A stretch of 64,000 nt of DNA from Aquificaceae bacterium. Its GTDB lineage: Bacteria; Aquificota; Aquificia; Aquificales; Aquificaceae. This document shows positions 4,039 to 21,901 of this stretch, one piece after another. Position numbers and translations under genes: made by a program. Within the stretch, counting starts at the first letter, position 1, and each line of letters begins with the position of its first letter. Below the pieces are notes generated by a model, which saw only the letters and a list, made by a program, of their open reading frames with translations, was not told where the DNA came from and searched no databases. The stretch spans positions 1 to 64,000 of the forward strand of contig JALWEG010000001.1 of assembly GCA_027014155.1 (NCBI GenBank), read 5' to 3'.

Positions 4039-4926
4039 ATGATGAGAAAGCTCGGGAAGAAAAAACTCACGGCTGTAATTATAGTCTTGGCATTACTGAT
4101 TAGGTTCCTACCCCAGGAGCTGCCTCTCTTAGACAAATACGGCGACGAGTACTTTAACTCGGCGATAGTCAAAGCCGTCACTACATACGCGGCTGCCAGA
4201 ATCATTAACGCCATAGTGTCGGTGGCAAAGGAAACGGAGGTGGAGGTCGGTTTTTCCTTCCTATTCTCGGGCTCCTCTACCATCCATGTAGGTCAGTTTC
4301 TTGACCCCGTTGACGATGCGGTAGAGCGCCTATCAACGGTTCTTACGACTTCCATAGCCTCTTTGGGACTGATGAAGATATCCAAAGAGATACTCCAGTT
4401 CTACACACCCAAGCTCATCTCTTACATGCTGCTGCTTCTGATACCCGGTATATGGTGGTTGAGGTTCAGGAAGTTCTCAAGGTTCTTGATGAATCTCATG
4501 GTACTGCTTCTCGCTTTGCGATTGGCTCTACCGGTAAGCGGCATCGTGAACAACACTATATATGCAGATGTATTTGAGCCTCAGATTCAGGAGTCCCTTG
4601 AAATCCTCAGCCTTGTGGGAGATGACGAGGAGCTTTCGGCCGACGAGGATAAGGGATTTATAGATAACTTGAAGGATAAGGCAGATGCATTGAAAGAGGG
4701 AGCCAAGCGTCTGTGGCAAAATAAGGGAGAAATAGTTAACGCCTTGGTTGGCCTCTTGTTGCTTTACATAAGCATGGTAGTCGTGCAGGTTATACTGATA
4801 CCCCTTATCGTAATCTGGGTCTTGATAAAGCTGGTGAATACCCTCTTTGAGAAACGGCTCTCCATAGAGGACGTTATGGAAGCTCTGGGAAGAGAAAGGC
4901 AAAAGGAGGGAAGCGATGTCAAGTGA
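4039..4926 (+). CDS. membrane protein of unknown function, paired with a PrsW-like protease
   Basis: 295 residues, no family recognised. A basic N-terminus (MMRKLGKKK) precedes a first membrane segment at about 10-26. There are further hydrophobic stretches near 130-165 and 235-270. Between them is a soluble, acidic loop (about 185-225, with DDEELSADEDKG). The C-terminus is charged. The stop overlaps the start of the PrsW-like gene (ATG 4916), and an AAGGAGGG ribosome site for that gene sits inside this one, so the two are coexpressed. It lies directly behind CRISPR leader 1. A partner or substrate of the protease is a reasonable guess, but only a guess. Confidence 0.6.
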   Translation: MMRKLGKKKLTAVIIVLALLIRFLPQELPLLDKYGDEYFNSAIVKAVTTYAAARIINAIVSVAKETEVEVGFSFLFSGSSTIHVGQFLDPVDDAVERLSTVLTTSIASLGLMKISKEILQFYTPKLISYMLLLLIPGIWWLRFRKFSRFLMNLMVLLLALRLALPVSGIVNNTIYADVFEPQIQESLEILSLVGDDEELSADEDKGFIDNLKDKADALKEGAKRLWQNKGEIVNALVGLLLLYISMVVVQVILIPLIVIWVLIKLVNTLFEKRLSIEDVMEALGRERQKEGSDVK

Positions 4927-5701
4927 GAAGAAGAAGTTTTTCATAATCCAAGTGATACTTATACTCGTTTCCCTCTTCATAATGGTTGCGTTCGGCGTAG
5001 AAGAAAAGAGGATTTTCTTCATATTCAAGTACGAGAAATATACCACTCAGTTTTTCGCTTCCGTAGCCTTCATCGTGGCCTCAATCTATATGCTACTGCT
5101 CACCTATTGGTATAACAACGAGGACAACTCCTTCAGATGGAGATTGTCCCTTGAGCTTCTGTTTATTTCAGGAACGCTGTCCGTGCTGTTTTCTTTAATC
5201 TTGTACCGAATCCTTACCCCAATATTGATGATGGACCCAACTTTAAAGCTTTTAACCTCAGCCGGTGCACATGCAGGGTTGGTTGAGGAAGCGGGCAAGT
5301 TGCTTGCAGTGCTTGCCTTACCGACCGTCAGGAGATTCATAAGAGACGGCAGGACGGGGCTTTATGCGGCAACGCTCTGCGCACTCGGCTTTGCCTTTAT
5401 AGAGAACATAAGCTATTTCACAAGGTTTGAGTCAGTTCTATATACACGCTTTAATCCCGGACATGCGGTTTTTTCCTCTATATGGGGCTACGCTCTTGGC
5501 AGGCTGTATGCCGGGGAGATAAGGCTTTCCGACTTCGCGAAATACATGGCGCTGGGCATGCTCCTGCATGCAAGCTGGAACTATTTAGCCAGCCTCCACC
5601 AGTTGGCTTTCTGGATTTTATACATACTCGTCTCCGTATACGGACTTGTGTACATAAAGAGAAGGCTGAGTGAGAGTCCGAGGACAGCGGCAGCGAATTG
5701 A
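4916..5701 (+). CDS. PrsW-like intramembrane metalloprotease
   Basis: 261 residues with about seven membrane segments. Motifs of the PrsW (M82) family, related to Abi/CAAX proteases, appear in order: VEEAGKLLAV (about residue 122), ALGFAFIENISYF (about 157), PGHAVFSSIWGYALGR (about 181) and GMLLHASWNYL (about 212), supplying the conserved EE, EN, H and H. In Bacillus, PrsW makes the site-1 cut in the anti-sigma factor RsiW. Here the gene ends 37 bp before an operon encoding a sigma-like protein and its likely inhibitor, which makes a role in sigma control attractive but unproven. Start ATG 4916 follows AAGGAGGG. Confidence 0.8.
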   Translation: MSSEKKKFFIIQVILILVSLFIMVAFGVEEKRIFFIFKYEKYTTQFFASVAFIVASIYMLLLTYWYNNEDNSFRWRLSLELLFISGTLSVLFSLILYRILTPILMMDPTLKLLTSAGAHAGLVEEAGKLLAVLALPTVRRFIRDGRTGLYAATLCALGFAFIENISYFTRFESVLYTRFNPGHAVFSSIWGYALGRLYAGEIRLSDFAKYMALGMLLHASWNYLASLHQLAFWILYILVSVYGLVYIKRRLSESPRTAAAN

Positions 5702-5725
5702 AAGTGGAAGTTAGGGTGGTATAAT
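5698..5725 (+). promoter_or_regulatory. promoter of the calp operon
   Basis: TTGAAA (5698-5703), 16 bp, then TATAAT (5720-5725), a near-consensus sigma-70-type promoter. It overlaps the stop of the PrsW-like gene. The predicted start near 5732 leaves only about 6 nt before ATG 5738, so the first message would be almost leaderless. It makes the downstream four genes a separate transcription unit from the two membrane-protein genes. Confidence 0.7.
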
Positions 5726-5737
5726 CTTCATGGGGTT

Positions 5738-6238
5738 ATGTTCAAGTTTGAGGAGAGCGTTTGGGAACGTGTATCCTTCCCGGAACTTTCTCTGGGCCAG
5801 TACGATGAAGAGAGGGTATGGTATCACATAGAACCCAAGGGGCGTGCGTGGAACATTAAGAAGAAAAGGCCTTTTATAGTGGTCAAATGCACTCAAAAAC
5901 ACGTTTATCTGCTTCTTTTGACCACCCTGGAGCTTAACGTGTACAGGTGCAAGCTTGATAGAGCCTACGGAATAGGCACCTTTTTACCTGAGGTGCTATT
6001 AAAAGAGTGCAAGATTAAGGAAAGAAGATGCCGCTGGATGGGTGAAAGGTCTCGCATATTTAAAAGAAGGTTGGGTAAAAACGAGTGCAGGATAGTGGTT
6101 AGAATCTCCAAAAAGCTGCTTGCCAAGAATTCTACCCTGTGCGGGGAGTGTAAGGAAAGCGTATTTGATGACCAGGTTAGGTTTATAGTAGAGGAGGAGC
6201 TTGAGGGTTGGAAGCTAAGGAATTCGGGGAGCTTGTAA
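5738..6238 (+). CDS. small MazF/PemK-like protein at the head of the calp operon
   Basis: 166 residues, basic, not assignable to a named family. Two blocks recall the MazF/PemK SH3-like fold: a KKRPFIVVKCTQKHVYLLLLT strand pair (residues 42-62, like the RPxxVVS block of MazF) and FDDQVRFI (143-150, like the DQIRTV segment). It also carries a CGEC pair of cysteines near 135-138 and other scattered cysteines that might bind metal. Its 3' end overlaps calpS by 31 bp. In the studied Sulfurihydrogenibium module only CalpT is the MazF homologue, so this would be an additional component. The fold is inferred from short motifs only. Confidence 0.5.
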   Translation: MFKFEESVWERVSFPELSLGQYDEERVWYHIEPKGRAWNIKKKRPFIVVKCTQKHVYLLLLTTLELNVYRCKLDRAYGIGTFLPEVLLKECKIKERRCRWMGERSRIFKRRLGKNECRIVVRISKKLLAKNSTLCGECKESVFDDQVRFIVEEELEGWKLRNSGSL

Positions 6239-6879
6239 AAGCTCTATTTGATGGCACGATAGACAACAGAAGGTATCAGAAGCTATTTAGCTACCTTGCG
6301 GGCATAATAAATAGAAAGAGCAAGGGAAACCTGAACTACCAAGACATCAAGGACCTAACGAGCGCCTTCATCCTTAAGCTTTTAGAGAATAAAGAGAGGG
6401 TTTCAACTTTGCTAAGTGAGCCTTCGGAGCTGAGGGCGTATATATCCACCTCCGCCCGCAACTTCTTAATAGATTTCTTAAAGAAGGACAAGAGCAGGAA
6501 GTTTGAGATAGCGGAATCGGACATGTCGCAGGAAGAAGAAGAAAAAACACCCTTTATGGATAGGGTGGCGGCACCTGAGATTGTTAGAACCTACGAGCTC
6601 ATGGAGCTTAAGGAAACATTCAAAAAGAAGGTAAAGACCGAGAACGTTAAGTATTTTTGCTACATGCTGGATTCAAAGAGGTATAAGTGTCTGTGGGGCA
6701 ATAAATCCGATGATGCTATCTACAAGGACGTATCGCGCAAAAGGCGGGTAGTTGAGGAATTCGGAGACGAGCTTAAGAGACTTGGGATTACGAGAGAGCT
6801 TATGTTGGAGTTTACCAAGGTAGTGCTGTCAGAAACCTGCGAAAAACTTCGTTTAGAGTTATGTAAGGAGGTGGAATAA
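6208..6879 (+). CDS. calpS: CalpS-like ECF-type sigma factor
   Basis: 223 residues from a TTG start at 6208, chosen because GAGGAGG (6191-6197) lies at the right distance. Residues about 25-95 resemble sigma region 2: QDIKDLTSAFILKLLENKE followed by LRAYISTSARNFLIDFLKK. The C-terminal part (about 135-200) would take the place of region 4 but is weak. In the described CalpL/T/S system, CalpS is an ECF sigma factor held inactive by CalpT and freed when CalpL cuts CalpT. Position (directly before calpT and calpL) and size fit that role. It overlaps the upstream gene by 31 bp and is 2 bp from calpT. Confidence 0.75.
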   Translation: MEAKEFGELVKALFDGTIDNRRYQKLFSYLAGIINRKSKGNLNYQDIKDLTSAFILKLLENKERVSTLLSEPSELRAYISTSARNFLIDFLKKDKSRKFEIAESDMSQEEEEKTPFMDRVAAPEIVRTYELMELKETFKKKVKTENVKYFCYMLDSKRYKCLWGNKSDDAIYKDVSRKRRVVEEFGDELKRLGITRELMLEFTKVVLSETCEKLRLELCKEVE

Positions 6880-6881
6880 AG

Positions 6882-7742
6882 ATGTCCCCCCTGCATGAAA
6901 TACTGGAGCTTTATAAAAGCGCTCTGAAACCCGAAGAGGACTACGAGGAGATACAAGGGCTGGACATAGAAGCTCCACCGCTACCGAAGGACGTATCTCC
7001 CAAAGAGGTAGAACCGGTAGAAGAACCCGAGGAGGGAGATGTGATAGAGATTTTCCCCAGCCCGGACGGAATGGAGATGTATCTTCTCGTATTCAGAATA
7101 TACGTAAACGGCTACGTTGAGTTGCTTCCGCTCTCAAAGTTTTGGGAATTGGCAACGCCCGACGACGTTCTCGTGAGCGTGAACGGGGAACATTTCATCG
7201 TAGAGACAGACCTTGGCTTTGAGGTTCCTTTGGAGAACTTCCCAAAAAGGTTCGGAAACAGGCGGATATTTAAGGTTGCACAGCTTACCCCTGAGCAGAT
7301 GCAGGAGGTAGACGATGTCTATGAAGGGAGGAAGAGGGGAGTTGGGGGTATGTGGGGAGGGGTTAAGGTGGAGTTTAAGACCCTTGAGAGCAAGAGTTAC
7401 TTCTCTATTTTCGTAGAAACGGTCGTGGAAGATGAAAGCCTTGCGGAGCTTAGTGCCTTCTTTGAAGAGCACAGAAGGCTTGCCTCCGTCGCAGGTGAGA
7501 AGGAACAGACTTGGGGTAGGAAGGGGGAAATAGAGTGGTTTTACGACTCTGAGACCCAAAGGCTAATTCTTCTCCCGGACAAAAGCCTTGTAGGAAAGGA
7601 GAAGAGGATTTTGCTTGAGGCAGGGGAGGATAGGATAGTCCTTTTTGAGGGTAAGCTTCCCGAAAAGATAGAACTCCCCCTTGCTCCCGAAAGCTACGAC
7701 TACTCTCTGCTTGAAGAATCACTGAGGATTGAAGATGTTTAA
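6882..7742 (+). CDS. calpT: CalpT-like MazF-fold protein, likely anti-sigma substrate of CalpL
   Basis: 286 residues, ATG 6882 after AAGGAGGTGG. Layout: an acidic N-terminus (1-50), a MazF/PemK-like segment (about 50-145, beginning EEGDVIEIFP), a basic-to-glycine linker (148-160, GRKRGVGGMWGG) and a beta-rich C-terminal domain (160-286). In the published system CalpT is a MazF homologue of about 33 kDa that binds the sigma factor CalpS and is cleaved by the cA4-activated protease. Size, fold hints and gene order agree. The exposed linker is a plausible cleavage region, but that is inference. Its stop overlaps the calpL start at 7735. Confidence 0.7.
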   Translation: MSPLHEILELYKSALKPEEDYEEIQGLDIEAPPLPKDVSPKEVEPVEEPEEGDVIEIFPSPDGMEMYLLVFRIYVNGYVELLPLSKFWELATPDDVLVSVNGEHFIVETDLGFEVPLENFPKRFGNRRIFKVAQLTPEQMQEVDDVYEGRKRGVGGMWGGVKVEFKTLESKSYFSIFVETVVEDESLAELSAFFEEHRRLASVAGEKEQTWGRKGEIEWFYDSETQRLILLPDKSLVGKEKRILLEAGEDRIVLFEGKLPEKIELPLAPESYDYSLLEESLRIEDV

Positions 7743-9426
7743 AGTTCTAAACGAGTCCCAAAAGATAGCTCTGCTTAAGGATTTCCTCAGAAAACCATCG
7801 GCTATATCCGCTCGGGACATTGATAGGCTTTTGGAGAGCTTCCCCTTTGAGAGCGCTCGGCTCAATTACCTGAGCCTTCAGGTCTTCAGAGCGAGGAAGG
7901 ACATAGTCCCTCCGGAAAAGCTTTCTTCCAAGCTGGGGATTAATACGGAGACTGCCAAAGAAATCCTCGGTTCTGAGGAGAGGTATGCCGTATTTCCGGT
8001 GGTTAATCCGGGGAATAGAAAGGCGCAGCTGGTGAAAGCTCTCCTGGTACCAATAAGAGGGGAGAGGGTTATTCTTATAGGTGGTGAGCCACCTGAGAAC
8101 CTAAGCCTCTTGGCTAAGCTCTCCGGAACCGGATTCGCAATAGCCTTTAGCTCGGAGTTTGACTGGAAGGGAAGCAGCTCTTACATGCTTTCCGTATATG
8201 CGTCTTTGGCCTTTCACGGCAAGTTTAGAGATTTGGCCTTCACGGGGGTTATAACTCCGGAAGGAGAGCTTGAAGAGGTGAGCTTTCTCAGAGAGAAGAG
8301 AGAGTTTTGCAAAAAAGAGGGAATCCCTCTCGTTTACCCCTCAAGTTGTATGAAAGACCTGAGGGACCTTGAAGGCTTTATCTTATCTCTTTCAATACCG
8401 CTCGCCTCTTTACCTTCAACAGATCCCTCTCCGTTCTTGAGGGAGTTCAAGTTTGAAGAGGCTTACATAAGAGATGTCTTTCATCTGTCTTACCCTCTGA
8501 TTTACGGAGAATCCTTTGAGGAAACTGTAGAATCCTTCGGCAACTTTGCAGATTGGCTTGAAGTTGTATCTACCCGGCTCAAGAGCATAAATGAGAACTA
8601 CCTACCGATTAAGGTGGGAATAACCAGCAAGGTTCTGGCAATGACATTTTACTTGGGTTCCGTGCTGGCAAAGTCAAGGCTTCCGGTTGATTTCTACCAG
8701 TACGACAGGGGAACCTATCGGGTAGCGTTTTCGCTTTCCAGCGACAGAGATGTGCCCGATACGCAAGCCGTGGAGAAGCTCGTTAGCGTCAGCAGACCTA
8801 AAGATGTTAAGGAGATATTCGTCAATCTCAAAACCAAGATAGAGGGAAGGGAAGATGCTCTTGAAATAAAGCTACCGGAGGGGGAACATCATGACGATAA
8901 CCTCCTTGAGCTTGCCTTCTACGTGAGCAGGGAGATAAAGTCGGTGGGAAGAGGATGCAAAAAGCTGCACCTGGAGGTTTCCAATCCCTTCTCCTTCGCA
9001 CTGGGGTATTTCTTGGAAGATTATGTCTGTCTTGAGCTTGTTCATAAAGGTAAAGTGGTCTATGCTCTCGCTCCTTCGGAAGACGGACATTTATACCTGC
9101 TGAACGCTTTCTCTCTCAATATGCTTGAAAAGGGTAAAGCGTTGGTGGATATAGAGGAGCTATCTATGCAAGAGGCGGTTAGAGTTCTTGATGGCGGATA
9201 TGAGTCTTATATATCCCACGGTGCTACAGCTCAGGTGCTATCTAAGATGCTCAGAAGGGAGGTTCAATTGAGGAGGGAGCCGATAAAGCTCAAAGCCGGG
9301 GACAGAGCTTTGGTGTTCCAGATAAAAAAACGACCCGCGGAGGGACAGGTGTTCACCGAGGAAGAGATTGAAGACATAGTAAAAGCCAACAGGTTCAGCT
9401 TTTTCCTGATAAAGGTTTTCTACTGA
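7735..9426 (+). CDS. calpL: CalpL: Lon protease-SAVED sensor fused to a DUF1874/AcrIII-1 (Crn2) ring nuclease
   Basis: 563 residues from ATG 7735, overlapping the calpT stop; a TTG at 7729 is the alternative. Residues about 85-222 are a Lon-type proteolytic domain. WKGSSSYM places Ser147 where Lon has its catalytic serine, and TGVITPEGELEEVSFLREK places Lys188 at the catalytic lysine. Residues about 235-450 form a SAVED sensor with two CARF-like halves (PIKVGITSKVLAMTFYLG near 291; VSNPFSFALGYFL near 415). Residues 452-563 match the DUF1874 family, AcrIII-1/Crn2 cA4 nucleases: YLLNAFSLNML (454-464), YISHGATAQVL with candidate catalytic His495, KLKAGDRALVF (518-528), and RPAEGQVFTEEEIE. So a cA4-switched protease would carry its own off-switch. 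It converges on hipB with a 32-bp overlap. Confidence 0.88.
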   Translation: MFKVLNESQKIALLKDFLRKPSAISARDIDRLLESFPFESARLNYLSLQVFRARKDIVPPEKLSSKLGINTETAKEILGSEERYAVFPVVNPGNRKAQLVKALLVPIRGERVILIGGEPPENLSLLAKLSGTGFAIAFSSEFDWKGSSSYMLSVYASLAFHGKFRDLAFTGVITPEGELEEVSFLREKREFCKKEGIPLVYPSSCMKDLRDLEGFILSLSIPLASLPSTDPSPFLREFKFEEAYIRDVFHLSYPLIYGESFEETVESFGNFADWLEVVSTRLKSINENYLPIKVGITSKVLAMTFYLGSVLAKSRLPVDFYQYDRGTYRVAFSLSSDRDVPDTQAVEKLVSVSRPKDVKEIFVNLKTKIEGREDALEIKLPEGEHHDDNLLELAFYVSREIKSVGRGCKKLHLEVSNPFSFALGYFLEDYVCLELVHKGKVVYALAPSEDGHLYLLNAFSLNMLEKGKALVDIEELSMQEAVRVLDGGYESYISHGATAQVLSKMLRREVQLRREPIKLKAGDRALVFQIKKRPAEGQVFTEEEIEDIVKANRFSFFLIKVFY

Positions 9427-16674: not shown

Positions 16675-18614
16675 CAAGAATAAAGGGGATTCTGATACTC
16701 CTGCTGACGGGCCTTCTCTTTGTCCACGCCTCCGAGAAGCAGTTAGAAAAGCTGATAGAGCAGTATAAGAAAGAGGGAAAGATAGTTCTCAACTTTGAGT
16801 CCGTTGAGGTGTCCACGGTAGCCAAGCTGATGTCCGAGCTTACGGGAAAGAACATAGTCCTGCCCGGCAACATAAGGGGCAAAATCTCTATAAGCTCCAC
16901 CAAGCCCGTCAGCGTGCAGCAGGCGTGGGACATATTCACCTCCATGCTGTCCACCATGGGTTTCGCCATAACGGAGGACGGGGGGGTGGTTAAGGTTCTC
17001 CCCTCTTCCAACGTTCCCACCGTGGCCACCTTAGGTGAGCCCGAATCGGGGGGGGACGTAAAGGTGTTCGTATATACGGCGGCTTACTCCAACGCTCAGC
17101 AATTGATAAACGTTATAAGGCCATTCCTGTCTCCCTTCGCGAGGGTGGCGGTTCATACCCAGACCAACACCCTCATCTTGGCGGACATCGGCGATAACAT
17201 AAAAAAGGCTAGACAGATTCTCAAGATAATAGATACCAAGGATAACTCCCTTGAGATAAAGGTGTACAGGCTCAAATACCTTAGCGTTCAGGACGCTACG
17301 AGAACCCTGAGCGTGCTGGCATCTTCCTTCGGCAAGGTGGGGGTGCAGGTGCAAATTACCTCCAGCCAGGAGGCGGGTAGCGTAATAGTTATAGCACCCC
17401 GCAAGGTTCACGAGGTAATCGCCGATGTGCTGTCCCAGATAGACACGGAGGACATACTGGACGAGCAGAGGAACTTCTACGTTATACCCCTGAGATACAC
17501 CTCAGCAAAGGAGATAGCAAAGACTTTGGGAGGGATACTTAAATCTCAAGGTAGTAGAGGAAGGATTCTGCAAAGAGTCTTAAAGAAGGGTAAGAAGAAT
17601 AAGAAAGCAACCCGCAAGGGAGGGATATTTCTCTCCACCTCTTCGGGAATGAGGATAAGCTTTGACGAGGGCACCAACTCGGTTCTGGTTTACGCAACCC
17701 GTGAAGAGTACGAGGAACTTAAGGAGCTTATACAGAAGTTGGATACCCGCAGGAAGCAGGTGCTCATAGCCGCCACCATAGTAGAGACCTCTACCCGTAA
17801 GCTCCTTGATATAGGCGTTAGGTGGCAGATTTTGGGAACCCAGGGAGCCGCCACCTTCAGGGGAGGCTCCGAGAACGACATCTACAGCTCCTTCCTCAGC
17901 GGGAACTTTCTCGTGGGCGTGTTCACTCCCTCGGGGGAGAAGGTCTCCGTAGGCGGAACGGAACTCTTCTTTCCTGAGCTTGCCATACTCTTTTCTCTGA
18001 TAGAACAGGGGAGCGGTTTCAATATCCTTTCCAACCCCAAGGTTCTAACCTTAGACAACAAGGAGGCGAGCATAAAGGTGGGGCAGGTGATACCCTTCGC
18101 CTCGGGCGTCAAATTTGACGTAAACGGACAGCCGATAATAACCTATGACTACAAGGAGGTGGGCTTAGACCTTCAGGTAGTCCCTCACATATCCGAGGAG
18201 AACCTCAGACTCTCCATAACCCTCAAGCTTCAGGAGATAATAGACTTCATAAACCCTCAGGTGGGAGGGCTCAGCTACACGGTGCCTGTGACCTCCAACA
18301 GAGAGATAAACTCCGACGTATTCATAGAGAACGGAGAGACCATAATCTTGGGCGGACTCGTTAGCTCCAAAACCCTGCGAACCTCCGACGGCGTGCCCAA
18401 ACTCAAGGAGGTGCCCATACTGGGCAACCTCTTCAAAAAGGAGGTCAAGCAGAGCGATAAGACCACTCTATTTATCTTTATAACCCCCTATGTCATAAGC
18501 TCACCCCAGGAGCTAAGCCGACTCACCGAAAGGCACAAGGAGATGGCCAACAAGCTCAGGGAGCTATCCAGGAGAAGGAACGCGGATAAAGAAGGTGATG
18601 AAGAAGATTTCTAA
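16671..18614 (+). CDS. gspD: GspD, type II secretion system secretin
   Basis: 647 residues. Signal peptide (about 1-20), then the N0/N1-type domains (NFESVEVSTVAKLMSELTGK near residue 42 and VYTAAYSNAQQLINVIRPFL near 131), further N domains around 195-320, and the C-terminal secretin barrel (about 360-620) with the typical VPILGNLFKK block and the final FIFITPYVI. It forms the outer-membrane channel of a type II secretion or related pilus system. gspN follows in overlap. The other gsp genes are not here. Confidence 0.92.
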   Translation: MTRIKGILILLLTGLLFVHASEKQLEKLIEQYKKEGKIVLNFESVEVSTVAKLMSELTGKNIVLPGNIRGKISISSTKPVSVQQAWDIFTSMLSTMGFAITEDGGVVKVLPSSNVPTVATLGEPESGGDVKVFVYTAAYSNAQQLINVIRPFLSPFARVAVHTQTNTLILADIGDNIKKARQILKIIDTKDNSLEIKVYRLKYLSVQDATRTLSVLASSFGKVGVQVQITSSQEAGSVIVIAPRKVHEVIADVLSQIDTEDILDEQRNFYVIPLRYTSAKEIAKTLGGILKSQGSRGRILQRVLKKGKKNKKATRKGGIFLSTSSGMRISFDEGTNSVLVYATREEYEELKELIQKLDTRRKQVLIAATIVETSTRKLLDIGVRWQILGTQGAATFRGGSENDIYSSFLSGNFLVGVFTPSGEKVSVGGTELFFPELAILFSLIEQGSGFNILSNPKVLTLDNKEASIKVGQVIPFASGVKFDVNGQPIITYDYKEVGLDLQVVPHISEENLRLSITLKLQEIIDFINPQVGGLSYTVPVTSNREINSDVFIENGETIILGGLVSSKTLRTSDGVPKLKEVPILGNLFKKEVKQSDKTTLFIFITPYVISSPQELSRLTERHKEMANKLRELSRRRNADKEGDEEDF

Positions 18615-19239
18615 GTATCTGCTCTACCTCTTTATCATCTTGGTCTTGGTTCCCCTCACCTTTCTCTTTACGCTGCCCAAGTTCTTTCTCCTGAACGAGC
18701 TTCTGGAGAGAAGCGGCATCTTCCTTTTGAACGGCAAGGTTGAAGAGGGATTTACCTACTTAAGGGTTAAGGATATGCGACTCTTTGCCGGCTCTCGGGA
18801 GGTGGCTCGGTTTCGGGAGGGCTACCTTAGGCTATCTCCCATCGGTATTGAGGCAGGGGCAAGGTGTGAAGGGAAGGGAAGCCTCAGCCTCAGCAGAAGC
18901 CTTTTTGGGACTTTGACCCTTGAGCTTAAAGGGCTTTCCTGCCTTGAGGGTGTGGATTTGGCATCGGGTAAGGTCAGGCTCAAGGAGGGAGCCGAGGGCA
19001 GGCTGAGCGTCAAAGGCGTAAAGATTGAGAATCTGAGCTTGGACGAGGTTATTTTGAAGTTCAATGGCTCAAAGGTAGATGTGGTGGTTAAGACGGCCGG
19101 CTCGGAGTTCAGAGGCAAGCTCAAGGTTGACTGGAAGCCCAATCTATTGGACTCTCGCGTGTCGGGAACGCTCAAAAGCCGGATTATGAGCTTGTCCGTT
19201 GGCGGAACCTTGGGAGGTTTGCACGTTAAGGGGCCCTAA
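18598..19239 (+). CDS. gspN: GspN-like type II secretion protein
   Basis: 213 residues from ATG 18598; a GTG directly before it (18595) is the alternative. One N-terminal membrane anchor (about 7-27), then a beta-rich periplasmic domain of repeated short strands (for example GSLSLSRSLFGTLTLELKG near residue 96), in keeping with GspN/GspC-type proteins that sit between inner membrane and secretin. It overlaps gspD by 17 bp. Sequence similarity is low; the call leans on topology and position. Confidence 0.65.
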   Translation: MKKISKYLLYLFIILVLVPLTFLFTLPKFFLLNELLERSGIFLLNGKVEEGFTYLRVKDMRLFAGSREVARFREGYLRLSPIGIEAGARCEGKGSLSLSRSLFGTLTLELKGLSCLEGVDLASGKVRLKEGAEGRLSVKGVKIENLSLDEVILKFNGSKVDVVVKTAGSEFRGKLKVDWKPNLLDSRVSGTLKSRIMSLSVGGTLGGLHVKGP

Positions 19240-20201
19240 ATCATACTCTTGGCCAGCTGGGTGAACTTCCTTATGGAGTTTACAGACCTCAGGAACTCCC
19301 TCTTCTCGTAGCCCGAAAGGTTTATCAGTTCATAGTCCCTTATCCCCTCTTTACCCAAAACCACCGGGACGCCTATACATATGTCCTCTGCCTCGTAGTG
19401 TTTTGCCACCTCGCCGGCTAAGTATGCGGAGCAGGGCAGAACCCTTCCCCTATCGTTTATTATCGCCTCCAGCATGAGAACTACCGACGCGGCCGGCGCG
19501 TAGTAGGCGGAGGTTCCCATAAGCTTGACTATGCTGCCTCCTCCCAATCGGGTCTCCTCTATGACCTCGTCAATCTCCTTGGCGCTGAGAACTTCCTCAA
19601 GGGGCTTGTTGCCTATAAAGCTGTTAGACATCACGGGCACCATGAAGTCTCCGTGGGTTCCCAAAACCAGAGCCCTTATGTCGGAGTAGGATATATCCAC
19701 GGTGCGCCGGACGTAGGTCTTGAATCTGGCGGAGTCAAGAACTCCGGCCATACCCACCACCTTGCGGTGGTCAAAGCCCGTAAGCTGTATGGTGGTGTAA
19801 GTCAATATGTCAACGGGGTTGGACACCACTATAACTACGGAGTGGGGCGCATACTCCCTTATAGCGTCCGTGAACTTTCTGAGGATTTTTATGTTCTCGC
19901 TAAGCAGCTCCTCTCTACTCATGGAACCCCTGCGGGGTATTCCTGCGGTTATAACCACCACGGAGGAATCCTCAAGGGCTCTGAAGCCCTCCACATCGTA
20001 GGATACGCCCTCTATATGTATATCCCGTCCCATCAGGACGGCCATCTGCTTCAGGTCTATGGCCTTGGCCTTGGCCGGTTCAAGGCCTCCCTTGTGCCTT
20101 CCGAAGAGGCACATGTCTCCCAGTCCCAGAACGGCACTCAGGTAGGCCACGTTCTCGCCCACCTTGCCGACACCTATGATGGAGATTTTCTGCCTTCTCA
20201 T
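19236..20201 (-). CDS. mdh: malate dehydrogenase (LDH-like type)
   Basis: 321 residues. Rossmann motif GVGKVGENVA (residues 10-19), NAD-binding VITAGIPRRGSMSREELL (about 83-100) with the arginine pair of malate-type enzymes, VVVSNPVDILTYT (about 121-133), and the catalytic histidine in LGTHGDFMVPV (about 181-191). It interconverts malate and oxaloacetate, a step of the reductive TCA cycle used by Aquificales. It overlaps lysS by 4 bp and converges on gspN. Confidence 0.9.
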   Translation of the reverse strand: MRRQKISIIGVGKVGENVAYLSAVLGLGDMCLFGRHKGGLEPAKAKAIDLKQMAVLMGRDIHIEGVSYDVEGFRALEDSSVVVITAGIPRRGSMSREELLSENIKILRKFTDAIREYAPHSVVIVVSNPVDILTYTTIQLTGFDHRKVVGMAGVLDSARFKTYVRRTVDISYSDIRALVLGTHGDFMVPVMSNSFIGNKPLEEVLSAKEIDEVIEETRLGGGSIVKLMGTSAYYAPAASVVLMLEAIINDRGRVLPCSAYLAGEVAKHYEAEDICIGVPVVLGKEGIRDYELINLSGYEKREFLRSVNSIRKFTQLAKSMI

Positions 20202-21901
20202 TGGGGTCTCAGGTGAGGAAAGAGGATAACCTCCCTTATGGAGTCCGTGTTGGCCAAGAGCATCAAAAGCCTATCTATTCCTATGCCCTCTCCCGCCGTG
20301 GGCGGTAGTCCGTATTCCAACGCTCTTATGAAGTCCTCGTCCATGTCCATGGCCTCCTCGTCCCCCATCTCCTTTTCCTTCAGCTGTTCTAAGAACCTCT
20401 CCTTCTGGTCAAAGGGGTCGTTCAGCTCCGTGTAGGCGTTGGCCAGCTCGTAGGTGGCCACTATAAACTCAAACCTCTCCACGAGGTCGGGGTCCTGCCT
20501 GTGGGTCTTTGCGAGGGGAGATATAAGTTTGGGGAAGTCAAGCACGAAGGTGGGCTGCAGTAGGTCTCCCTCGGCCACCTTCTCAAAAATCTTATCTATG
20601 AGCTTTGCGTGGGTCAATCTCTCGGCGTGCTTTACCTCCAGCTCCATGGCCAGCTTCCTGACCTCTTCCACGTTGCCTAAGAAAAACTCCTTACCTCTGC
20701 CCGTCTTCTCCTCCAACAGCTCAAAGTACCTTACCCTTTTGAAGGGGGGAGTAAAGTCCAGCTCAATCTCTCCGTAGCGGAGCTTTAAGGTCCCCAACGT
20801 GTTTTCCAGCAGGAAGACGAACATCTCCTCGGTAAACTCTATCAGGTCGTTGTAGTCCCAATAGGAGGCGTAGAACTCCACCATCGTGAACTCGGGATTG
20901 TGGGTTCTGTCCACACCCTCGTTTCTGAAGTTCTTTCCTATCTCGTAAACTCTGGGAAAGCCTCCCACGATTAGTTTCTTCAGGTAGAGTTCCGGAGCTA
21001 TCCTCAGAAAGAGGTTCATGTCCAAGTAGTTGTGATAGGTTATGAAGGGCTTGGCGGCGGCGCCGCTGGCTATCGGTTGGAGTATGGGCGTTTCCACCTC
21101 CACAAAGCCGTATCTATCAAAGAACTGCCGCATCAGAGAGATGACCTTGCTCCTGAGCAGGAAGATACTTCTGGCCTCCTCGTTTGCTATCAGGTCTAAG
21201 TATCTCTGTCTGTATCTAAGCTCTACGTCCCTTAGGCCGTGCCACTTTTCGGGCAGCGGGTGCAGGCACTTGGACAGAAGCTCAAACTCCTCCACCTCTA
21301 CCGTCAGCTCCCCGGTTTGGGTTCTGAAGAGTCTGCCTTTAACTCCCAGTATGTCTCCTAAGTCTATGTAATCTTTGAAGAACTTAAACCTCTCTTCCCC
21401 TAAGATGTCCTTGCGCAGGTATATCTGGATTTTACCGCTCAGGTCTTGAATGTGTCCGAATATGGCTCTTCCCATCTCCCTTATGGCCACCACCCTGCCG
21501 CCTAAGGACACTTTCTCGTCCTGTGGCTCTCTGTCGTATCTCTCCTTAAGCTCTCTGATACTGTTTTCCGCCTCAGAGCCGAGCTTGGCATCTACTATGC
21601 TGAGTTTGCCCTCCACCCGCAGGAGTTTGCCTTCAAAGATGTACTCCTTTTTCGGCTCCACCTGCTCCTGAGTAAACACAAAAATTTCCAGGTTCTCGTC
21701 GGAGAGGCGAATCAAAAAGCCCTCTTCCACATTGGAAACCCGCTTCGCCACCCCTTTGACGCTGACTCTTTCACCTTTTGGCTCGTCCTCAAACCTGCTC
21801 CTGACGTTCCCTATGAAGTCGGTAATCTCAAATCTGTAGGGGTAGGGGTTTATTCCTTTATCTCTGAGTTCCTTTAGTTTTTTTAGCCTCAGCTCTTCCA
21901 T
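20198..21901 (-). CDS. lysS: lysyl-tRNA synthetase, class II
   Basis: 567 residues. An N-terminal OB-fold anticodon domain (about 50-180) is followed by the class II core: motif 1 around RSKVISLMRQFFDRYGFVEV, motif 2 around VYEIGKNFRNEGVDRTHNPEF and motif 3 near the end (PPTAGEGIGIDRLLMLL). It charges tRNA-Lys. The chain is somewhat longer than E. coli LysS (505), mainly from an insert around residues 375-440. mdh follows with 4 bp overlap, and tilS lies 14 bp upstream. Confidence 0.95.
   Translation of the reverse strand: MEELRLKKLKELRDKGINPYPYRFEITDFIGNVRSRFEDEPKGERVSVKGVAKRVSNVEEGFLIRLSDENLEIFVFTQEQVEPKKEYIFEGKLLRVEGKLSIVDAKLGSEAENSIRELKERYDREPQDEKVSLGGRVVAIREMGRAIFGHIQDLSGKIQIYLRKDILGEERFKFFKDYIDLGDILGVKGRLFRTQTGELTVEVEEFELLSKCLHPLPEKWHGLRDVELRYRQRYLDLIANEEARSIFLLRSKVISLMRQFFDRYGFVEVETPILQPIASGAAAKPFITYHNYLDMNLFLRIAPELYLKKLIVGGFPRVYEIGKNFRNEGVDRTHNPEFTMVEFYASYWDYNDLIEFTEEMFVFLLENTLGTLKLRYGEIELDFTPPFKRVRYFELLEEKTGRGKEFFLGNVEEVRKLAMELEVKHAERLTHAKLIDKIFEKVAEGDLLQPTFVLDFPKLISPLAKTHRQDPDLVERFEFIVATYELANAYTELNDPFDQKERFLEQLKEKEMGDEEAMDMDEDFIRALEYGLPPTAGEGIGIDRLLMLLANTDSIREVILFPHLRPQ

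Follow-up and report, generated by a model that had tools for sequence, protein, structure and literature searches.

A Fourth Gene, Encoding a Protein with a Predicted MazF-Like Fold, in the Calp Operon of Aquificota

Organization of the Calp Operon

The window analyzed here, a 64,000-nucleotide stretch of DNA from an Aquificaceae bacterium, contains four overlapping or nearly touching genes on the + strand at positions 5738–9426, in the order P1, CalpS, CalpT and CalpL; all four genes of the Calp operon claimed by the original prediction were found. Calp is a bacterial antiviral alarm in which a CRISPR signal activates a protease, which in turn frees a gene-control factor, and both the descriptions and the reconstitutions of this cascade comprise three proteins. 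The first gene (5738–6238, + strand, ATG start) encodes P1, the product of the fourth Calp gene, a protein of 166 residues with a predicted MazF-like fold and a four-cysteine (Cys4) motif. It overlaps by 31 nt with the gene for a CalpS-like ECF sigma factor of 223 residues (6208–6879, + strand, TTG start), which is followed after a gap of 2 nt by the gene for a CalpT-like anti-sigma factor of 286 residues with a conserved putative cleavage region (6882–7742, + strand). The last gene (7735–9426, + strand, ATG start) overlaps by 8 nt with that of CalpT and encodes CalpL-Crn2, a 563-residue fusion of a Lon protease (S149/K188), a SAVED domain and a ring nuclease.

CalpS matched the ECF sigma factor model TIGR02937 weakly (3e-5, under the curated cut-off) and CalpS from Sulfurihydrogenibium YO3AOP1 with an E-value of 2.9e-12. 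CalpT matched the PADLOC entry Unk_02 (1e-9), while CalpL matched the solved CalpL in the PDB (4e-13). The S–T–L gene order and the Lon Ser–Lys dyad are shared with the YO3AOP1 CalpL/CalpT/CalpS system (PDB 7qda, 8b0r and 8b0u), and the window CalpT has a putative counterpart of the YO3AOP1 CalpT cleavage region. The dyad residues S152/K193 correspond to S149/K188 in the window CalpL and are kept in 24/24 CalpLs. The CalpT region aligned to A195/S196, a putative cleavage region according to the sequence alignment, is rich in small residues in most of 22 CalpTs; the first residue of the solved CalpT10 is S196 of YO3AOP1 CalpT. CalpT has been described as a MazF-like anti-sigma factor (PMC11417357; PMC9704534), and its MazF-like domain is degenerate: an RP dipeptide occurs in one of the 22 sequences, where it is off-register.

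Across loci, the majority of the gene junctions overlap or are ≤3 nt apart, consistent with the tight, coregulated arrangement that had been proposed. The only element that stood out upstream of P1 was a TATAAT-like −10 sequence. In the window, a TATAAT sequence at 5719–5724 (+ strand), ≈18 nt 5′ of the P1 start, resembles a sigma-A −10 element and is the probable promoter of the operon. Such an element (TATAAT with ≤1 mismatch, TA....T required, within the 45 nt before the P1 start) was present at 23 of 27 loci, compared to a mean of 9.2 and a maximum of 16 in shuffled sequences. Since the gene order recurs in ≈60 loci and P1 is under purifying selection (see below), the operon is real, far beyond chance.

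Distribution of P1

At 61 of the 62 Aquificota calpS loci surveyed, a P1 homolog immediately precedes calpS. These include the YO3AOP1 type locus, whose CalpL is 100% identical to PDB 7qda. The published YO3AOP1 complex is described as tripartite, without P1 (PMC11417357), but the YO3AOP1 genome has P1 upstream. P1 is therefore not the extra gene it was originally taken to be, but the rule in Aquificota, including the very operon that had been used for comparison. The gene is present rather than absent at related loci and a MazF-like fold is predicted for its product (see below), the two points on which the original prediction stood to fall.

A genome-wide profile search found P1 in 57 of 151 genomes, representing 21 genera. 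All full-length matches lie just 5′ of calpS and nowhere else in these genomes; away from calpS, the search gave just a decayed remnant (L204) and a single weak match. P1 is also missing where CalpS is missing, at one locus with CalpT and CalpL (L225) and another with a lone CalpL (L222). In the survey of Aquificota loci, P1 was absent at one calpS locus (G014), and it was not detected in three Calp loci outside Aquificota that were found by a wider CalpL search. Because of these four loci, P1 appears to be dispensable for some Calp systems. A scan of genome contigs yielded eight loci, all from Aquificota. Searches of viral contigs and of phage and plasmid records (the latter two with CalpL as the query) gave no matches, and CalpL was not found in two small phyla other than Aquificota.

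The dN/dS ratio of P1 was 0.10–0.23, similar to those of CalpS and CalpT and indicative of purifying selection. We considered the possibilities that P1 was a peculiarity of the window genome, which is ruled out by the locus survey, or a chance open reading frame, which is ruled out by the homologs together with the dN/dS ratio. By synteny, P1 is almost certainly the fourth component of the Aquificota Calp operon.

Sequence and Predicted Fold of P1

P1 had no match in Pfam, NCBIfam or the PDB sequences. None of the 46 P1 members reached the cut-off of the Pfam PemK_toxin model, and there was no PemK match anywhere in the window genome. The PADLOC model C3a162 (PDLC01080, “unknown function”) matched 15 of the 46 P1 proteins, the best being that of YO3AOP1 (4e-58). 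It gave no direct match to the window P1, falling short of this and most other members; judged through its relatives, the window P1 is a probable distant member of the C3a162 family. The PADLOC entry is silent on function, fold and any connection with Calp; the C3a names presumably come from a 2019 accessory-gene catalogue.

Structure prediction drew on the sequences from the window and related loci (n = 7), and the models of two different P1 sequences were of low confidence due to this limitation (pLDDT of 61 and 52). With the model of the window P1, all 19 entries at Z ≥ 2 were MazF, Kid, CcdB or ToxN; with the second model, the same was true of all 50 matches listed, with Z up to 5.8, although values of Z < 8 can arise from a common structural arrangement. 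A Foldseek search with the P1 model returned nothing usable. Comparison of the P1 profile with that of PemK/MazF gave a score of 25.0, which was reached by none of 200 column shuffles (maximum 17.8). The alignment comprises ≈39 columns and places RP on RP, with the Thr in register. The models and the profile comparison support a MazF/PemK-like SH3 barrel as very probably the fold of P1. The original prediction of a MazF-like first protein is borne out to the extent that the low-confidence models match only MazF/CcdB/ToxN folds.

The equivalent of the MazF catalytic Arg–Pro is R44–P45 (5867–5872, + strand), found in 46/46 homologs. T62 (5921–5923, + strand) corresponds to the catalytic Thr and is Thr in 32 and Ser in 14 of the 46. 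Catalysis by MazF depends chiefly on Arg25 and Thr48; in MazF7, a Ser stands in for the Thr (PMC7354611). P1 members share as little as 17% identity with the window P1, yet R44 and T/S62 are present in all 46; CalpT lacks this pair. Alternatively, the RP may be conserved for a structural role. Four cysteines, C91, C98, C135 and C138 (6008–6151, + strand), each present in 45/46 homologs, form a putative zinc site, probably a zinc knuckle. The two sequence blocks that had first suggested a MazF-like protein fared differently: the RP of KRPFIVV is invariant, whereas DDQVRFI is not conserved in the P1 family and was dropped, its resemblance to MazF probably being due to chance. P1 resembles the MazF/PemK/Kid toxins (PF02452) in its predicted barrel and in the RP and T/S that occupy the catalytic positions in every member, but it falls below Pfam detection, has the additional Cys4, lacks a MazE-type antitoxin and is tied to a sigma factor gene. 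The profile comparison between P1 and CalpT was weak (P = 0.036), and we do not claim that P1 is a duplicate of CalpT.

The Crn2 Domain of CalpL

The gene starting at 7735 had been described as Lon–SAVED, and both domains are indeed present; that description left out a C-terminal Crn2/AcrIII-1 (DUF1874, STIV_B116-like) domain at 9085–9423 (+ strand), which matched PF08960 at 9.8e-20 (71 bits, compared to a cut-off of 26). In an alignment of the domain with STIV B116, AcrIII-1-type proteins and Csx1-Crn2, its predicted catalytic residue, His495 (codon 9217–9219, + strand), falls on the histidine of the GHDST motif in STIV B116 and its kin; this position is His in 9/9 fusions. The nine CalpL-Crn2 fusions form a single clade. 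The ring-nuclease histidines of the SAVED domain are lost in 9/9 fused CalpLs and kept in 15/15 unfused ones. The Crn2 fusion and the loss of the equivalents of H345/H392 in the SAVED domain set the window CalpL apart from the YO3AOP1 CalpL, to which it bears only a distant similarity. From its sequence, the window CalpL appears to carry a built-in off switch in the form of Crn2.

The closest parallel is Csx1-Crn2 of Marinitoga piezophila, which also combines an effector with a Crn2 that has the catalytic His, and is self-limiting by design (PMC7293037). That fusion was called so far unique (PMC7293037), and it is the one such fusion mentioned in parts of a 2025 ring-nuclease survey (PMC12409355). 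The window fusion differs in that the partner of Crn2 is a Lon–SAVED protease that has lost the SAVED ring-nuclease histidines.

Discussion

The best overall explanation, to which we assign a probability of roughly 0.4, is that P1 acts as an RNA-cleaving or RNA-binding subunit of the MazF type, silenced in the CalpS/CalpT assembly. P1 would be co-translated with CalpS and kept silent in a resting CalpS/CalpT(/CalpL) assembly, in which the catalytically degenerate CalpT would stand in for an antitoxin, or for a second MazF protomer, on P1. Upon production of cA4 by Cas10, CalpL would cleave CalpT, freeing CalpS for transcription and P1 to act on RNA. At the window locus, the signal would then be ended by the Crn2 fused to CalpL, not by the SAVED domain. 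Taken jointly, RNA cleavage by P1, its inhibition by CalpT and its subsequent release are proposed tentatively, with somewhat less than even odds.

A role in regulating the sigma factor would explain the association of P1 with CalpS just as well. P1 might be a non-catalytic MazF-fold regulator that acts on CalpS as another anti-sigma factor or as a sigma chaperone, or that competes with CalpT, and its zinc knuckle would then shape the contact with the sigma factor; this ranks just below the RNA-cleaving subunit and is nearly as likely. CalpT sets the precedent as a MazF-like anti-sigma factor itself (PMC11417357; PMC9704534), P1 overlaps calpS rather than calpT or calpL and goes missing together with CalpS in L225 and L222, and the Cys4 is conserved as strongly as the RP. 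On the other hand, a purely structural partner need not hold Arg–Pro and Thr/Ser in 46/46 sequences, whereas the RP is lost from CalpT, the MazF-like anti-sigma factor already known. In G014 and in the loci outside Aquificota, CalpS also does without P1.

It is considerably less probable that P1 represents a new Cys4 (zinc-ribbon-type) family that binds RNA, DNA or RNA polymerase and shares only a β-hairpin with MazF. While the lack of Pfam, NCBIfam or PDB sequence matches, the short (≈39-column) profile alignment and the low pLDDT are all consistent with such a family, two models of different sequences gave only MazF/CcdB-type folds, and in the register of the alignment, the catalytic residues of MazF are matched by the RP and T/S that never vary in P1. 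The idea that P1 belongs, as the toxin, to a separate toxin–antitoxin unit, sited by chance at Calp loci, would account for the MazF-like catalytic residues but is largely refuted by the genome-wide survey and very improbable, since only the decayed remnant L204 and one weak match lie away from calpS, no small antitoxin ORF sits beside P1, and the next gene is always calpS.

Returning to P1 as an RNA-cleaving subunit, the complete scheme would be a four-part switch, in which a single cut by cA4-activated CalpL in CalpT, a dead MazF holding back both partners, releases CalpS and an active ribonuclease P1 together, with one clade using Crn2 as a timer that replaces the SAVED ring nuclease. We regard this scheme as a whole as speculative and rather unlikely.

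If nearly every Aquificota Calp operon, the type locus among them, encodes P1, the reconstitutions carried out so far miss one component, and adding this single gene makes the old question of whether the endpoint is a toxin or transcription directly testable. The SAVED ring-nuclease histidines were lost in precisely the clade to which Crn2 was added, and this amounts to a clean natural experiment; it seems that type III effectors need an off switch, and that the switch can be moved.

Organization of the Calp operon

The four-gene Calp operon described in the original prediction was indeed found at 5738–9426 on the forward strand, with neighbouring genes that overlap or almost touch. It encodes, in order, P1 (166 aa), a CalpS-like protein (223 aa, TTG start), a CalpT-like protein (286 aa) and a CalpL-like protein (563 aa), in which a Lon-SAVED body related to the solved CalpL (4e-13) is followed by a C-terminal DUF1874/STIV_B116 domain. 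A TATAAT hexamer (5719–5724) lies ≈18 nt 5′ of P1. TATAAT-like hexamers occur no more than 45 nt from the start of P1 in 23 of 27 loci, against a mean of 9.2 and a maximum of 16 in shuffles. P1 is thus probably the first gene of an operon with a housekeeping promoter and a very short leader. Just 5′ of P1 on the same strand (4039–5701), a 295-aa membrane protein is followed by a PrsW-family intramembrane protease (4916–5701; PF13367, 3e-22). Anti-sigma factors are known targets of PrsW proteases; no homolog was found at the other Calp loci checked.

The CalpL of genome G075 is identical to PDB entry 7qda, which identifies this genome as Sulfurihydrogenibium YO3AOP1. There, a P1 gene of ≈159 aa with a GTG start is located directly 5′ of calpS, and its TAA overlaps the calpS start. 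The CalpL/T/S complex has been described as tripartite (PMC11417357).

Distribution of P1

The window P1 had no match in Pfam, NCBIfam, PADLOC or PDB sequences. The PADLOC family C3a162 (“unknown function”) did not match it either, but matched YO3AOP1 P1 (4e-58) and 15 of 46 P1 members, and the family is therefore already catalogued. No function or Calp link for C3a162/P1 was found in the accessible literature.

A single-sequence search detected P1 homologs in nine of 151 genomes, all of which also encode CalpS, CalpT and CalpL, and an HMM search revealed divergent P1 genes directly 5′ of calpS at most remaining Calp loci. With a profile built from 46 homologs (A6), applied genome-wide and blind to position, P1 was found in 57 of the 151 genomes, representing 21 genera. 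The unexplained matches each had CalpS immediately 3′, with the exception of one weak match and a truncated 80-aa remnant without calpS in a decayed Calp locus (L204 3604–3846, genome G029). P1 had been predicted to be an extra gene, which was not borne out: it lies 5′ of 60 of 62 distinct calpS genes, or 61 counting a copy cut by a contig edge (L095), and is missing upstream of calpS only in genome G014, although these counts are not independent events, since the genomes are related. The P1 stop and calpS start overlap, most commonly by 4 nt, or are ≤3 nt apart in nearly all loci, and several loci (L124, L126, L205, L207) have a tandem pair of P1 genes. The dN/dS of P1 in close pairs (0.10–0.23) is similar to that of CalpS and CalpT.

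P1 was not detectable at three Calp loci beyond Aquificota (G249, G281, G294), and was absent from two Aquificota loci, L225 (CalpT–CalpL, no CalpS) and L222 (lone CalpL). Thus, within Aquificota, P1 accompanies CalpS. The four-gene operon is conserved, its genes are coupled, and P1 is restricted to CalpS loci. In L225 (4247–6638, contig C1 of G121), which has CalpT and CalpL but neither CalpS nor P1, CalpT may act with a different partner.

Several variants were observed. The window's own genome (G000) contains a second complete Calp locus beside Cmr genes (L089, contig C59, ≈17873–21173, reverse strand), deeply diverged from the window's and encoding a 152-aa P1-like protein, CalpS, CalpT and a 480-aa CalpL without Crn2. 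Genome G057 has three separate P1–CalpS–CalpT–CalpL operons (L082, L083, L084), one cut by a contig end and two followed by a cas10-like gene. In L126 (3160–6660, G041), CalpT and CalpL share one 640-aa frame, preceded by a tandem pair of P1 genes and by CalpS; this is either a fusion or an assembly effect. The calpS gene of L202 (3647–4314, G011) is broken into two frames and may be a sigma-factor pseudogene; P1, CalpT and CalpL are intact at this locus. Type III loci also encode SAVED-like proteins of ≈332 aa that lack a Lon domain and have a hydrophobic N-terminus (L226 3747–4745, L227 3284–4279).

Predicted fold and putative catalytic residues of P1

AlphaFold2 models, with input limited to seven sequences, were weak for both the window P1 (pLDDT 61, pTM 0.58) and its L140 homolog (pLDDT 52), and Foldseek by itself gave no usable match for the P1 model. 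When Foldseek candidates were re-aligned with VIA-align 2, all 19 entries with Z of at least 2 for the window P1 were MazF, CcdB or ToxN (best Z 4.5), and all 50 listed for L140 were MazF, Kid or CcdB (best Z 5.8). Two different P1 sequences thus point to the same single fold, though such Z scores alone are weak. The P1 profile scored 25.0 against an Aquificota PemK/MazF profile (maximum 17.8 in 200 column shuffles), pairing the MazF RP with R44–P45 and the MazF Thr with T62. Among the 46 homologs, R44 and P45 never vary, position 62 holds T in 32 and S in 14, and each of four cysteines (Cys4) is present in 45. The key catalytic residues of MazF are Arg25 and Thr48, and a Ser variant exists (PMC7354611). 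The MazF likeness originally predicted is supported, as are a MazF-like fold, a retained catalytic pair and the Cys4 motif. CalpT is also MazF-like, with a PLT/PLS-like motif in most members, but has no in-register RP; of the two, judged by these residues, P1 looks like the member that could still be catalytic.

Fusion of CalpL to Crn2

The C-terminal domain of the window CalpL (PF08960, 9.8e-20) had been missed in the original prediction. Nine CalpLs, including the window's, bear Crn2, and form one clade (100/100) in a tree built without this domain. The Lon dyad is kept in 24/24 CalpLs. All 15 unfused proteins have His at the positions of both YO3AOP1 SAVED H345 and H392; none of the nine fused proteins has His at the aligned positions, although their alignment has gaps near H392, and a coarser one set another His there in the window CalpL. 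No conserved His replaces H392 in the aligned stretch, and H495, the His of Crn2, occurs in 9/9 fusions. H392 substitutions strongly attenuate the YO3AOP1 CalpL ring nuclease (PMC11417357). In fused CalpLs, the ring-nuclease brake has apparently shifted from SAVED to Crn2. The known precedent, Csx1-Crn2, was called so far unique (PMC7293037) and is the sole fusion mentioned in the available part of a 2025 survey (PMC12409355). Stand-alone Crn2-like proteins in related genomes (L090 1371–1718, L092 3553–3879, and L091 1812–2420, with the match inside a 202-aa frame) are close kin of the CalpL-fused domain by BLAST.

Possible role of P1

P1 would be an RNA-acting subunit that is silenced inside the CalpS/T assembly until cA4-triggered cleavage of CalpT releases it; we assign this reading as a whole a probability of roughly 0.4. 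The nearest rival, with which the coupling of P1 to CalpS agrees just as well, is that P1 is a non-catalytic CalpS partner, which we consider only slightly less likely. P1 is the fourth component of the well-studied Calp system, nearly universal and as yet uncharacterised.
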